From positions 62,001 to 126,000 of the forward strand of contig NZ_MDGT01000003.1 of assembly GCF_001870515.1 (NCBI RefSeq): DNA of 64,000 bases, given 5' to 3'. The notes below the pieces were generated by a model. The model saw only the letters and a program-made list of their open reading frames with translations, was not told the DNA's origin and did no database searches. Both the position numbers and the translations under genes were made by a program. The first letter of the stretch is position 1; the number at the start of each line of letters is the position of its first letter. Source of the stretch: Idiomarina sp. MD25a (GTDB lineage: Bacteria; Pseudomonadota; Gammaproteobacteria; Enterobacterales; Alteromonadaceae). Shown here in pieces: positions 21,451 to 28,799 of the stretch.

Positions 21451-22372
21451 ATTTGTTGCTTTGAGGAATGCCTGCAAGTCCGCTTCGACCTCGGCGGTTA
21501 GCAAACCAAACACCGATTAAAATAGCGAGCATTCCCAAACCGTGCTGCAGAAAGAAGGGTTCGCCATCAAGTACACCCAACATCATGGCGACGATGGGAA
21601 TCAAGTAAGTGACGGAGCTGGTGAACACGGTGTTGGTCAGCTGTACGACATAATTGAAAATGACCAATGCACCGGCAGTGCCTACAATTCCTAGCACCAG
21701 TACAGCGGTAAGGGAAAGTGGCGCGTTAGGTCGTTGTGCATGGGCTAAAAAGTCGGTGCCTAGAAATAAGAAAATCGCTGCTGGAATACTGGCCATCAGC
21801 AGTGATACGCCAGTAATGGTGAGCGGTTTTAAGTCGGCAATTTTATGTTTGATTAAATTTAGGTTGATGCCGTAGCACACGGTTGCAAGCATGACCAATA
21901 AGGCATAGCTATTAAAAGTGAACGAACCATTCGCTGTTGCGGTAATGAGTAATACCGTCCCGACTAAGCCAATGACGATACCTACCCACTGCGCCCAGCG
22001 AGCAGACTGACTAAATAGTAATACCCCGGTCACTAACGTTGATATTGGCGTTAATGCGTTTAATACACCCGTGACACCGCTTTGTAGCTGAGTCTGTGCG
22101 ATGGCAAACATGAAGGCGGGTATGAAACTACCTACTAAACCCACACATGCCAGTTTAAGCCAATGTTTACGGGAAATTTGACGCAGTTTAGGCAAGATTA
22201 AAGGTGTTAATACGATCCCTGCAGATGCAATCCGCAGCGCACCGACTTCGAGCGCTGTAAAGGCGATCAACCCTTTCTTAATTAATAAAAACGAACTACC
22301 CCATATCAGTGCGAGTAGGCCTAGCAACAGCCACGCTTTTAATGGTGGAGTCTCCGTGCTGTTATGTGTCAT
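21449..22372 (-). CDS. EamA/DMT-family transporter
   Basis: Inner-membrane protein of 307 aa with about ten hydrophobic segments in two EamA repeats. The first begins [22 protein letters not shown] with the [17 protein letters not shown] region; the second holds [30 protein letters not shown]. Proteins of this family export metabolites or amino acids, but the substrate cannot be predicted. It overlaps engB by 11 bp upstream, so the two are probably co-transcribed, and it interrupts the usual polA-engB neighbourhood. Confidence 0.85.
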
Positions 22373-23039
22373 CGCTTTCTACAAAGTCATCGGTGGCCGG
22401 TTTTTCGCCCAAAAACCATTGATCGAGCTTTTGCTCGAGTTGGTCGATACCAAACTTCTTGAGCGAGGAGAACACTTCAACTTGTACGTCACCATTGAAG
22501 GCAATCGCTGCTTGGCGTGCTTTCAATAACGTTGACTTGCGAGCGCCTTGTTTGAGTTTATCTGCCTTGGTTAATAGCGCCAATACTGGGATGCCGCAAT
22601 CCACCGCCCAATAGATCAGCTCTTGGTCGGTCTCACGAAACGGATGGCGAATATCCATGAGTACGACGAGGCCTTTGAGTGAGTCGCGCTTTTCCAAATA
22701 CTCAGACAACGACCGTTGCCATTGCTCTTTTACTTCCATTGGGACTTTGGCAAAACCGTAACCTGGTAAATCGATTAGGCGTTGGCCGGTTGCGGTTTCA
22801 AAAACGTTAATCAATTGCGTCCGACCCGGCGTCTTACTAGTCCGCGCTAAGTTGCGCTGGCGCGTAAGTGTATTTAACGCACTGGACTTACCTGCGTTTG
22901 AGCGGCCGGCGAACGCGATCTCGATGCCACTATCCTCCGGTAACTTGCGTATATTGGGGGCACTAGTAATAAAGGTAGCTGTTTGATAATTGATGCGCTT
23001 TTCTGACACGACAGGCTCACTTGCTTGTAAAATGTTCAC
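22362..23039 (-). CDS. engB: Ribosome biogenesis GTPase EngB (YihA/YsxC)
   Basis: Essential GTP-binding protein of large-subunit assembly. The 225-aa product shows G1 [12 protein letters not shown], the switch-I Thr region [10 protein letters not shown]3 [12 protein letters not shown]4 LTKADKL and G5 SSLKKFG in order. Location near polA is conserved with E. coli (yihA). It overlaps the downstream DMT transporter gene by 11 bp and is divergent from the cytochrome c4 gene across 164 bp. Confidence 0.95.
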
Positions 23040-23203
23040 TATTGCGCGGTATTATGAAGCATCTGTACACTTTCTCCAACGCTGAATTGCATAAACAATG
23101 TGCATTAGACGTTTAATCGTGCGTTGTTTTGTGTAAAATAAGCTACCGTTAGATGCGATCGGTTCAGGCACGAGGGTGCCTCACAGAGACAAGAGAAGCA
23201 GAC

Positions 23204-23830
23204 ATGAAAAAATTCGCGATCATTCTAGGATTGTTTATTAGTTCGACCAGCGTTGCGATGGCGCAACAGGGTGATGTCGAAGCAGGGAAACAAAAGTCTC
23301 AGGTATGTGCAGCATGTCACGGACCTAACGGCGTTTCTCCTACAGACATGTATCCGAACTTAGCGGGTCAACACCCCAAGTACATCTATAAGCAGTTGAT
23401 GGACTTCAAAACCGCCTCTGAAACTGGCGGTGAGCAAGGTCGTAACAATGCTATCATGATGGGCCAAGTTGCTAACTTGTCCGAACAAGACATGAAAGAC
23501 TTAGCGGCTTATTTTGCAGCACAAGATCCTGCAAAAGGCGATACCCCAGAAGACCTGATCGCTAAAGGCTCAGATCTATTCCGTCGCGGTAACCCAGAGA
23601 CAAATATTCCGTCATGTGCAGGTTGTCACGGACCGCGCGGTAACGGTATGGGTCTTGCTGCTTTTCCTGATATTTCAGGCCAGCATCCGGCGTACGTTAT
23701 TTCTCAATTAGAAAATTTTCGTAGCGGTAAGCGCGCCAATGATCCAAACGGCATGATGCGCGGTGTTGCTGAAAAAATGACCGATGAAGAGATGAAATTA
23801 CTCGCTGAGTACCTGCACGGTCTTTATTAA
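23204..23830 (+). CDS. Dihaem cytochrome c4
   Basis: Periplasmic electron carrier of 208 aa with two tandem class I cytochrome c domains, each with a haem motif: CAACHGPNG in the first half and CAGCHGPRG in the second, plus distal Met regions. A clear signal peptide (KKFAIILGLF ... SVAMAQQ) precedes them. I use the ATG at 23204; an upstream in-frame ATG would add 17 residues before the signal peptide. Cytochrome c4 passes electrons to terminal oxidases. A strong terminator follows. Cytochrome c4 next to engB is common in pseudomonads and Alteromonadales. Confidence 0.93.
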   Translation: MKKFAIILGLFISSTSVAMAQQGDVEAGKQKSQVCAACHGPNGVSPTDMYPNLAGQHPKYIYKQLMDFKTASETGGEQGRNNAIMMGQVANLSEQDMKDLAAYFAAQDPAKGDTPEDLIAKGSDLFRRGNPETNIPSCAGCHGPRGNGMGLAAFPDISGQHPAYVISQLENFRSGKRANDPNGMMRGVAEKMTDEEMKLLAEYLHGLY

Positions 23831-23850
23831 GAAAAAAGTTTATTCATGAA

Positions 23851-23877
23851 GGGTGGCTCGAATGCCACCCTTTTTTT
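23851..23877 (+). terminator. Terminator of the cytochrome c4 gene
   Basis: Perfect 7-bp stem GGGTGGC/GCCACCC with a 6-nt loop, followed by seven T. Confidence 0.92.
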
Positions 23878-23961
23878 ATCATATGTTATAGATTTATGCG
23901 TTTTTTACGTCTTATAAACAAAAATGTTATAAAAAAATGGATTTTTAGAGCGATAAAATCA

Positions 23962-23990
23962 TTGAACTCATCCGCATTAATACGTAGTCT
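23962..23990 (+). promoter_or_regulatory. Candidate promoter of the structured RNA
   Basis: TTGAAC (23962-23967), a 17-bp spacer and TAGTCT (23985-23990) give a moderate sigma-70 match. Transcription would start near 23997, just before the first structured segment. Confidence 0.45.
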
Positions 23991-23996
23991 TTAAAG

Positions 23997-24309
23997 CGTC
24001 CGAGGGAGATGACCTCTCCTGAGGCAATAAAACAATAACAAGACTGCTCAAAGCAGCGAATAAAATCGATACATAAAAATAACAATAAATCGATTCTGGA
24101 TTTCGGTTCACAAAACCAATAATAATAGAATAGAGATCCAGGGAGTAAAAGTAGTATTGGTTGCTCCTTTCTATAATAACAACAACTAGAAAATTAGGTT
24201 ACGGAAGACCGAGATAAAAACTCGGAAGCAGTGACAACCATTCTCATAGTTGCAGTGCGCTGCCGAATATGAGAAACAGAGGCGATGGAAACATCGCCTT
24301 TTTTCTTTT
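23997..24309 (+). ncRNA. Structured non-coding RNA candidate at the csrC position
   Basis: About 310 nt without a credible ORF but rich in self-complementary parts. They are CTGCT/AGCAG at 24044-24056, AATCGAT/ATCGATT at 24064-24095, CTGGAT/ATCCAG at 24096-24141, CCGAG/CTCGG at 24209-24225, a perfect 8-bp TTCTCATA/TATGAGAA enclosing GCAG/CTGC at 24241-24275, and a terminator. Linkers are G-poor and A-rich, as in sRNAs. E. coli csrC lies between yihA and yihI; here the element also lies between engB and yihI, with one extra gene on each side, and the terminator GGCGATG...CATCGCCTTTTTTCTTT resembles the csrC end as I remember it. Only six GGA triplets are present, few for a CsrA sponge, so CsrB/C identity is unproven. 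Confidence 0.55.
24281..24309 (+). terminator. Terminator of the structured RNA
   Basis: GGCGATG/CATCGCC, a perfect 7-bp stem with GAAA tetraloop, followed by TTTTTTCTTTT. It precedes the methyltransferase start by 15 bp, so that gene must rely on read-through or a promoter further inside. Confidence 0.9.
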
Positions 24310-24323
24310 CTATTGAGCCCTTT

Positions 24324-24971
24324 ATGTTGTTATGTCCTCTGTGTGATTCACCAAGTCGGTTTTATGCGCGTGATAGAAGACGTGCCTTCCATCAATGTTC
24401 TCATTGTCAGTTAGTTTTTGCTGATCCAGCGACGCACGTTGACCGTGACGAGGAGAAGCGCCTTTACGAGACACACGAAAACGATCCGCATGACCCACAC
24501 TATCGTGACTTCTTAAGCCGCCTTTGGCAGCCACTGCAGCAAGTTTGCCAAAATTTGAGTTACCGAACAGCCCTCGATTTCGGTTCGGGACCTGGCCCCA
24601 CGCTGCATCTAATGATGCAAGAGTCGGGTATCGATGCTCACCATTATGACCCTATTTACTCACCCGATGAGACGGTACTGAGCGAATCCTACGATGTAGT
24701 GACCTGTACTGAAGTCATAGAACACTTTTATTATCCGCAACGAGAATTTATAAAGTTACGTCGGCTCGTTAAGCCAGGCGGTACGTTAGCGACGATGACA
24801 AAGCCTTATGTATCGGCTGACTTATTTCCGAATTGGCATTATAAAAACGACCTGACCCATGTTTCATTTTTTACTGACCAGACCTATCGTTATATCGCGC
24901 AACGGTTTGGTTTCAGCGTCGACAGAGTGAGCGATCAGGTAACCTTCTTTCGTTGTGTTAAATCCTGCTGA
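24324..24971 (+). CDS. Class I SAM-dependent methyltransferase with N-terminal zinc ribbon
   Basis: A 215-aa protein starting LLCPLCDSPSRFYARD with CPLC and CSHC pairs about 20 residues apart, a likely zinc ribbon. The Rossmann methyltransferase domain contains ALDFGSGPGPT (motif I), VVTCTEVIEHFYYP (motif IV region) and RLVKPGGTLATMT. I prefer the ATG at 24324 because the longer frame from 24285 would begin inside a transcription terminator. The substrate is unknown. It is placed between the structured RNA and yihI. Confidence 0.8.
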   Translation: MLLCPLCDSPSRFYARDRRRAFHQCSHCQLVFADPATHVDRDEEKRLYETHENDPHDPHYRDFLSRLWQPLQQVCQNLSYRTALDFGSGPGPTLHLMMQESGIDAHHYDPIYSPDETVLSESYDVVTCTEVIEHFYYPQREFIKLRRLVKPGGTLATMTKPYVSADLFPNWHYKNDLTHVSFFTDQTYRYIAQRFGFSVDRVSDQVTFFRCVKSC

Positions 24972-25026: not shown

Positions 25027-25482
25027 ATGACTCGTAAGAAAAAAACACGTAAGACGGGGCCTCTTGCGCCGTCGAAAGCGCCAAAAGATAAACGCCAAGT
25101 AGAAAACCTAACCCGTGGAAAGAAAAAAGGTAAAGGCCAGCCTGCCGGTAAACGCCATAGTGAGCCTAAACGTGATCAGCAGACGGGACAAAACAATGAC
25201 ACCCAAACGGATCCACGTAAGGGCAGTAAGCGTAAGATCGACCTAGGCCCTGTTGTTTCAACAGCAGCCGTCGCGGCACTGACTCCGCAACAAGAGCTCG
25301 AGCAGTTGCAAAATGATGAAAAATTGCAGGATTTAGTTGAGCGCTTTGAGCAGGGTGAGGTGTTGTCTAATGATGATCAGCGTTATCTCGACGAGCAATC
25401 TGAACGTTACGAAAAGCTGGCAAGCCAGTTAGGTCTCGATCTTGACGATGATGACGATGAATGGGATGACGAGGAGTATTGA
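25027..25482 (+). CDS. yihI: Der GTPase-activating protein YihI
   Basis: A 151-aa protein with a lysine/arginine-rich N-terminal half (TRKKKTRKTGPLAPSKAPKD) and an acidic C-terminal helical part (LTPQQELEQLQNDEKLQDLVERF, ending in a DDDDDEWDDEEY tail). This matches YihI, which stimulates the GTPase Der (EngA) in late ribosome assembly. The ribosome site AAGGAG precedes the start. It overlaps the next gene by 1 nt (TGATG). Its position after engB agrees with the E. coli neighbourhood. Confidence 0.88.
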   Translation: MTRKKKTRKTGPLAPSKAPKDKRQVENLTRGKKKGKGQPAGKRHSEPKRDQQTGQNNDTQTDPRKGSKRKIDLGPVVSTAAVAALTPQQELEQLQNDEKLQDLVERFEQGEVLSNDDQRYLDEQSERYEKLASQLGLDLDDDDDEWDDEEY

Positions 25483-28405: not shown

Positions 28406-28434
28406 ATAAAAAACGCCGCTAAAAAGCGGCGTTT
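28406..28434 (-). terminator. Terminator of the cold-shock gene
   Basis: AAACGCCGCT and AGCGGCGTTT form a 10-bp stem with an AAAA loop (28411-28434). Reading the minus strand it ends in a T-rich tract (GTTTTTTATTT). Confidence 0.9.
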
Positions 28435-28455
28435 AGAATTCTTTTTAAACGTAGA

Positions 28456-28662
28456 TTACATAGGAACTACGTTTTCTGCTTGAGGACCTTTAGGACCTTG
28501 AGCAACGGTGAAAGAAACTTGTTGGCCTTCAGCTAAAGTTTTGAAACCGTCAGCTTGGATTGCACTGAAGTGAACGAAAACGTCTGCGCCGTTTTCTTGT
28601 TCGATGAAACCAAAGCCTTTAGCTTCGTTGAAAAACTTAACTTTACCAGTAGTAGTAGACAT
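28456..28662 (-). CDS. Cold-shock protein (CspA family)
   Basis: A 68-aa single cold-shock domain that binds single-stranded RNA and DNA. The RNP1 motif KGFGFI and RNP2 motif VFVHF are intact. The protein has the usual [17 protein letters not shown] start and PQAENV end. A monocistronic unit is indicated by its own promoter (28800-28827), a 130-nt 5' leader and a strong terminator. Long leaders of this kind act as temperature-responsive structures in cspA genes, so cold induction is plausible but not shown. Confidence 0.95.
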
Positions 28663-28799
28663 GCTGATCTTCCTCGTAATGCATGTGAATTAAAAATGCT
28701 CAGAAATTGGTATTACTTGGACTTACAAAACGAGGTACAGCAAAGAAGGACTTCGTACACAAATCTCAAAACAATAGCCGAATTTCATCAGCGATCATC

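Follow-up and report, generated by a model that had tools for sequence, protein, structure and literature searches.

CsrC of Escherichia coli (RF00084), a CsrA-sponge RNA, is encoded on the same strand as yihI, in the gene order polA-spf-yihA-csrC-yihI in strain MG1655, where yihA is also known as engB. It contains 14 GGAs and can form 8 GGA hairpins. Further Csr RNAs come from the marine gammaproteobacterium Pseudoalteromonas fuliginea, in which Pf1, Pf2, and Pf3 carry 25, 21, and 9 GGAs, respectively, and Pf1 has a putative GacA box (PMC9927453); binding of CsrA to Pf2 and Pf3 has been demonstrated (PMC11882849). A different type of titrating RNA is represented by CrcZ and CrcY, which are Hfq decoys transcribed from an RpoN promoter at another locus, with several AAnAAnAA motifs in their loops. 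Hfq binds the pattern AAYAAYAA. CrcZ of A. vinelandii has six AAnAAnAA motifs, located in loops (PMC5429807).

Here, we analyze the csrC locus of Idiomarina sp. MD25a in a stretch of 64,000 nucleotides of contig NZ_MDGT01000003.1 (hereafter the window). For a structured RNA between engB and yihI, a preliminary description of this DNA had raised two possibilities, namely that it belongs to CsrB/C as a diverged member or that a different RNA occupies a conserved locus. The comparisons below support that proposal and favor a diverged csrC-locus RNA. In the open-access literature, we found no title or abstract describing an Idiomarina csrC-locus RNA or a change in the UvrY receiver.

Results

A small RNA gene in the csrC position

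The features of the locus are collected in Table 1. The presumed RNA gene, about 315 nt long, has no notable gene on its forward strand and folds at −89.3 kcal/mol, compared to −57.9 kcal/mol (SD 4.5) for 100 shuffles, none of which is as low (z −7.0); the gene-free stretch and its self-complementary arms are thus as first described. Its location between engB and yihI holds insofar as both genes flank it, but each is one gene further out than the immediate neighbors, which are a cytochrome c4-type gene and a methyltransferase gene. This is nevertheless the csrC position by engB and yihI, with these two genes intervening, and on the same strand as yihI as in E. coli, where csrC does lie between yihA and yihI as had been stated. 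Both the c4 type of the cytochrome and the identity of engB are our assignments by recognition. The cytochrome gene product is 99% identical to its I. baltica counterpart, and the gene is closed by its own terminator (23848–23873), so that the RNA seems to be a unit of its own. The longest form of the methyltransferase open reading frame starts at 24285, within the RNA terminator; a start at 24324 is likelier.

Table 1. Features of the csrC locus in the window
Feature	Position	Strand	Basis or remark
engB (yihA)	22362..23039	-	ORF
Cytochrome c4-type gene, upstream neighbor	23153..23830	+	Pfam Cytochrom_C, two stretches
Candidate regulator site, 18-bp inverted repeat TAAAAA-N6-TTTTTA	23930..23947	.	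centre near −58 of presumed start
−35 element, TTGAAC	23962..23967	+	TTGA conserved in alignment
−10 element, TAGTCT	23985..23990	+	conserved column block
Structured sRNA (csrC-locus RNA)	23997..24309	+	fold z, genus-wide matches, R1 searches
5′ hairpin GAGG...CCUC	24002..24016	+	fold; most variable part of genus alignment
A-rich tract 1 (AAUAAAACAAUAACAAG), linker	24026..24042	+	AAYAAYAA enrichment
Stem-loop with covarying stem, alignment columns 104-122	24042..24056	+	two-sided changes in 3/4 pairs
Stem-loop with covarying stem, loop is A-rich tract 2 (AAAAAUAACAA)	24065..24094	+	two-sided changes in 3/6 pairs
A-rich tract 3 (AAUAAUAAUAG), MFE hairpin loop	24118..24128	+	fold, AAYAAYAA enrichment
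GGA site 1, CCAGGGAG	24138..24145	+	CCAGGGA in 35/35 Idiomarina and Pseudidiomarina copies
A-rich tract 4 (AUAAUAACAACAACUA), MFE hairpin loop	24173..24188	+	fold, AAYAAYAA enrichment
GGA site 2, ANGGA within the hexaloop of the hairpin GGUU-ACGGAA-GACC	24197..24210	+	ANGGA in 35/35
GGA site 3, ACU-CGGAAGC-AGU, weak 3-bp hairpin	24220..24232	+	GGA in 35/35
Conserved 3′ hairpin UUCUCAUA...UAUGAGAA	24241..24275	+	genus alignment, consensus fold
Rho-independent terminator	24280..24304	+	scan: stem 24278-24301 with T-rich tail
SAM methyltransferase gene, downstream neighbor	24324..24971	+	Pfam Methyltransf_23
yihI	25027..25482	+	Pfam YihI

The promoter, previously called a moderate sigma-70 promoter, is weaker than that. 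The −35 and −10 elements, spaced by 17 nt, match the consensus at 4/6 and 3/6 positions, respectively, and a consensus promoter scan gave no forward-strand site; the weak −35/−10 block is conserved across the alignment of 19 Idiomarina genomes. The terminator, on the other hand, was found by the scan just as described, its stem is invariant in the genus alignment, and the AGGCGA...TCGCCTTTTTTCTTT likeness to the terminator of E. coli CsrC noted earlier is real. By sequence and conservation, the RNA therefore has what CsrB and CsrC have in terms of a discrete intergenic gene with promoter and terminator, and we take it to be an independent small RNA gene.

Upstream of the promoter, the motif TAARRA-N6-TTYTTA is centered 55–61 nt before the presumed start in 19/19 Idiomarina and 11/16 Pseudidiomarina copies, with constant arms and a variable center. 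Its 6-6-6 layout is that of the UvrY/GacA box, but it is a different repeat from this box of CsrB and CsrC promoters, which, at up to one mismatch, is found in 0/19 Idiomarina and 0/16 Pseudidiomarina upstream regions. That UvrY binds the repeat is a guess; the motif is equally compatible with a UP element or with a site for some other dimeric regulator.

Conservation and covariation in Idiomarina

A DNA search at an E value of 1 or better matched the RNA in all 19 Idiomarina genomes, the two weakest best matches being at 5.4e-10 and 1.8e-5. The RNA is upstream of yihI in every one of them, and 18 have a cytochrome c4 match upstream (no hit is listed for L019). The methyltransferase gene is found between the RNA and yihI in five genomes and is missing from this place in 14. 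Since numerous further genera of the family carry it as well, it may have been lost more than once.

The preliminary description would have been refuted by stems that are not conserved among relatives. This is not the case: the RNA is conserved and two of its stems covary, 6 of their 10 pairs having changed on both sides; neither this count nor the covariation score is reached by any of 500 shuffles, for stems chosen from the fold of the same alignment that was used for the test. Further pair types in these stems are not above the shuffles (341/500). The best conserved part is the 3′ 137 nt, with a mean column identity of 83% as opposed to 69% for the whole RNA. The 3′ third is kept more tightly than a simple sponge would need, which counts against the sponge reading.

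Few GGA sites and many A-rich tracts

The window RNA contains 6 GGAs, compared to 5.6 in shuffles, and its MFE fold has no GGA within any hairpin loop, which bears out the earlier remark that GGA is near chance and mostly outside loops. It can form three GGA hairpins (0.78 in shuffles), one of which is the terminator loop, and the many GGAs in hairpin loops that mark CsrB and CsrC are not seen in it. GGA is present at three positions in all 35 Idiomarina and Pseudidiomarina copies, which are related, so that counts over them are not independent. Sites 1 and 2 read ANGGA in 35/35 copies, and site 3 in 2/19 Idiomarina and 16/16 Pseudidiomarina copies. The site 2 hairpin, GGUU-ANGGAA-RACC, occurs in 17/19 genus copies, with a different GGA hairpin at this place in L026 and none in L025; it is kept in 98.5% of cells, compared to 94.1% for a competing long-range pairing, and shows no two-sided change in the alignment. 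A site 3 hairpin of at least three pairs is possible in 32/35 copies, in a register that is not constant.

The A-rich linkers of the preliminary description exist as A-rich tracts, but tracts 2, 3, and 4 are in hairpin loops, and the term linker does not cover them. The window copy has 8 overlapping AAnAAnAA matches, a multiplicity expected of CrcZ, and Idiomarina RNAs have 11.1 on average as opposed to 1.56 in shuffles. For the stricter AAYAAYAA pattern, the counts per RNA are 6.47 versus 0.16 shuffled in Idiomarina, 5.75 versus 0.15 in Pseudidiomarina, and 1.90 versus 0.11 in 29 other RNAs of the family, with GGA counts of 5.16 versus 5.15, 5.38 versus 4.54, and 6.69 versus 4.71, respectively.

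Covariance-model searches

The Rfam search suggested earlier gave no match to the RNA whatever the cut-off, with neither CsrB nor CsrC appearing even at E 10, and 0/19 Idiomarina genomes pass the cut-off of the CsrB model. Because no Rfam cut-off is reached and the RNA does not display many GGAs in hairpin loops, it is not filed as a CsrB/C member. We judged 24 sub-threshold rows near the RNA (STnc430, MicX, STnc40, GcvB, etc.), many of them on terminator hairpins, to be chance. Over the whole window, only cspA and one tRNA are above cut-off, the former being a cspA thermoregulator RNA at a cold-shock gene (28406–28795, reverse strand, 121 bits); Spot 42 is not found in the window at the gathering score.

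A covariance model built from the 3′ 137 nt (R1) matched in 17/147 family genomes at E 0.01, with 14 matches beside cytochrome c4 and/or yihI. The matches L057, L058, and L060, which lack both neighbors and look like terminators only, were dropped. Applied to 92 loci, 80 of them named, R1 gave 51 matches: 10 are in named Idiomarina or Idiomarinaceae, 16 are of Pseudidiomarina type (one in a MAG named only Gammaproteobacteria), 13 are weak, with E values from 6e-5 to 3e-3, and belong to Alteromonas and its relatives, and 12 are the unnamed loci.

The same slot in relatives

For the family comparison, we used 60 yihI neighborhoods from 48 genera of the GTDB family. A cytochrome c4-type gene is upstream of yihI in 38/60; the 22 loci without such a hit (L137 and L149 being at contig ends) entered the UvrY-box count only. 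Many of the gaps hold, by eye, an RNA with hairpins of the type GUC-AGGAA-GAC and a terminator. Counts of GGAs and motifs were made on 29 RNAs, including one from Pseudidiomarina (L147), and exclude L092, L095, L114, L118, L125, L139, and L142, whose ends were not set, as well as L143 and L145, whose gaps exceed 1100 nt. These RNAs can form 53 GGA hairpins in total, compared to a shuffled expectation of 21.2; as a positive control, CsrC of E. coli gives 8 versus 1.1. The excess is a group effect: it is rare (at most 10/200 shuffles) for 6/29 individual RNAs, and 5/29 lack GGA hairpins entirely. GGA counts are above the RNA's own shuffle mean in 28/29, and the GGAs in loops of the MFE fold are above all 30 own shuffles in L136, L138, and L140 only, in a comparison that took in 10 of the 19 genus copies. 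The UvrY box, at up to one mismatch, occurs in 7/60 upstream regions from seven genera, compared to 0.4 in shuffles.

None of 20 yihI loci of relatives reached an Rfam cut-off, and 2/12 had CsrC matches below the cut-off of 61 bits, one scoring 29.0 (E 5e-5) and the other 21.3 (E 0.02), so that the RNA group at these loci goes unrecognized by Rfam. Two further elements were seen in the neighborhoods. Spot 42-like RNAs of 37–61 bits, under the Rfam cut-off of 80, are present at 6/12 loci (L107:595-675, L109:3661-3781, L122, L127, L133, and L140), and a GTAAA-N6-GTAAA direct repeat, which resembles an OmpR/CpxR-type site, precedes the RNA in 17/38 gaps (last 1000 nt; L094, L102, L107, L127, and others).

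The hairpin GGCC-A(C)GGA-GGCC occurs in every one of the 16 Pseudidiomarina copies, and its GCC-AGGA-GGC core is common to the CGCC-AGGA-GGCG hairpin of E. coli CsrC. GCC-AGGA-GGC is found in 0/19 Idiomarina copies, several of which have, by eye, AGCC-AAUA-GGCU or similar at the matching place, which we read as a probable lost CsrA site. In a midpoint-rooted cytochrome c4 tree of 27 rows, Idiomarina, Pseudidiomarina, and Aliidiomarina group together (96/94).

UvrY, BarA, CsrA, and a second sponge

With E. coli UvrY as query at E 1e-40, 131/145 family genomes match, as opposed to 0/19 Idiomarina. The 14 family genomes without a match are the five Idiomarina drawn, four Pseudidiomarina, three Aliidiomarina, and two less than 90% complete. 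Absence of UvrY from this clade was considered and rejected, for a looser cut-off revealed a response regulator beside uvrC in 7/8 genomes tested, diverged to 29–34% identity with its E. coli counterpart; in the eighth (G137), no hit is beside uvrC among those fetched, a subset of its hits. The uvrC-linked protein is the top UvrY hit in four of the seven genomes and is outscored by another regulator in G016, G118, and G076. Its DNA-binding domain, however, is 43–54% identical to that of UvrY, compared to 10–36% for 23 other fetched hits, and sets the seven apart as UvrY orthologs. Their presence agrees with the reported occurrence of GacS and GacA in Idiomarina (PMC7366521).

The LuxR-type DNA-binding domain is kept in all seven copies, from Idiomarina, Pseudidiomarina, and Aliidiomarina, whereas their receivers are only 16–22% identical to that of E. 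coli UvrY. All seven have changed every one of positions D8, D9, D54, and K104, the phosphorylation residues of receivers, and with them the acidic pair and the phosphoacceptor are gone. Among the 23 other regulators, 18 read D, D, D, K, three deviate solely in having E as the first residue, and two differ further. In the UvrY ortholog of the window's genome, found beside uvrC at L256:1423-2145 (around G000:C3:1246975-1247592), the degenerate receiver scores 19.3 bits with Pfam Response_reg (cut-off 30.2; E. coli 109.7), and GerE scores 60.4. These replacements suggest that the usual route of phosphorylation is closed to the receiver in the seven copies examined.

A search for BarA gave kinase hits at 1e-60 in 20/20 genomes, many being partial matches to the kinase domain. 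CsrA is encoded in all 19 Idiomarina genomes, and twice in that of the window. An AGGA-AGGA-AGGA pattern gave 25 mostly scattered hits in the latter genome, as many as the reversed control, so that no GGA-dense CsrB is seen there, although a sparse one would escape this pattern; it gave 6 hits in E. coli CsrC and 8 clustered hits at a probable CsrB of one Idiomarina genome (G017). This canonical-looking, GGA-dense RNA (L038:1501-1809, reverse strand, on G017:C4; Rfam CsrB 31.7 bits) is beside a small gene that we recognized as presumably DUF1328-like, and the densest GGA windows beside that gene in the 18 other Idiomarina genomes hold nothing comparable by eye. It is one of seven sub-threshold CsrB rows in 5/19 genomes. 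Those judged by reading were G017, L039, and L041, with L040, L042, L043, and one locus-less row left out; L039 holds a terminator after a coding end, and L041 reads as coding DNA.

Discussion

Synteny and the family-wide comparison make it most likely that the RNA descends from a CsrA-sponge RNA of the CsrC type. The shared slot and the GGA hairpins of relatives speak for this, with the qualification that the window RNA no longer displays many GGAs in hairpin loops and is dominated by A-rich tracts. The RNA differs from E. coli CsrC in having these tracts, fewer GGAs and GGA hairpins, and no Rfam match, and like Pf1–Pf3 it bears GGAs, but fewer. We consider it rather probable that the CsrC-derived RNA is a CsrA binder with few sites that also binds Hfq and is uncoupled from the BarA/UvrY phosphorelay. 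Transcription would run from the presumed start near 23997 to the terminator, and the conserved 18-bp repeat is a candidate site for an activator, which might be the UvrY of Idiomarinaceae. With three kept GGA sites, the RNA could accommodate one CsrA dimer or two, and the many (AAY)n motifs of its loops and linkers would be expected to bind the distal face of Hfq. Such an RNA would be a low-capacity CsrA decoy that is also bound by Hfq, which might stabilize it or be titrated by it. Transcription, CsrA and Hfq binding, and UvrY control are what we infer from the sequences.

It is also conceivable, if unlikely, that the RNA is chiefly an Hfq-dependent antisense sRNA, which would pair with mRNAs through its 3′ module (GGAAGCAGUGACAACCAUUCUC and the hairpin) and carry the GGAs as remnants. 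The tight conservation of the 3′ 137 nt would be explained, and A-rich tracts and a terminator U-tail suit Hfq binding, but a possible stem overlaps part of the module, and the three GGAs persist in Pseudidiomarina despite changed flanks. These GGAs would be left unexplained by a CrcZ-like decoy, which would use its multiple AAnAAnAA motifs to titrate Hfq. The excess of such motifs and their place in loops recall CrcZ of A. vinelandii; since the locus is engB-yihI rather than cbrB, and the Rfam CrcZ model gives 12.6 bits against a cut-off of 95, we regard this reading as improbable. Least of all do we expect a leader or attenuator of the methyltransferase gene or yihI. It would suit the methyltransferase start, 20 nt past the terminator in the window, but not the invariant terminator stem, nor the 14/19 Idiomarina without a methyltransferase gene between the RNA and yihI, which have, by eye, a conserved promoter-like block before yihI.

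Returning to descent from a CsrC-type RNA, the csrC-locus sRNA gene is conserved and was remodeled in Idiomarinaceae alongside its presumed regulator, and its RNA would be a dual binder of CsrA and Hfq. More tentatively, and with considerable doubt, the Csr output of this family may have been rewired as a unit, with a phosphorylation-independent pseudo-receiver UvrY reading a new 18-bp repeat, TAARRA-N6-TTYTTA, and a former many-site CsrA sponge turned into a decoy for both CsrA, at three sites, and Hfq, at (AAY)n tracts. If so, two global RNA-binding regulators, CsrA and Hfq, would be linked by one RNA. The locus illustrates how a protein-titrating RNA may stay in place, shed the majority of its target sites, and acquire the motif of another protein, while the two-component regulator of that RNA loses its phosphorylation switch. 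The clade of Idiomarina, Pseudidiomarina, and Aliidiomarina is a natural experiment on the requirements of the BarA/UvrY-Csr circuit, and its csrC-locus RNA a direct test case for crosstalk between CsrA and Hfq within one molecule.
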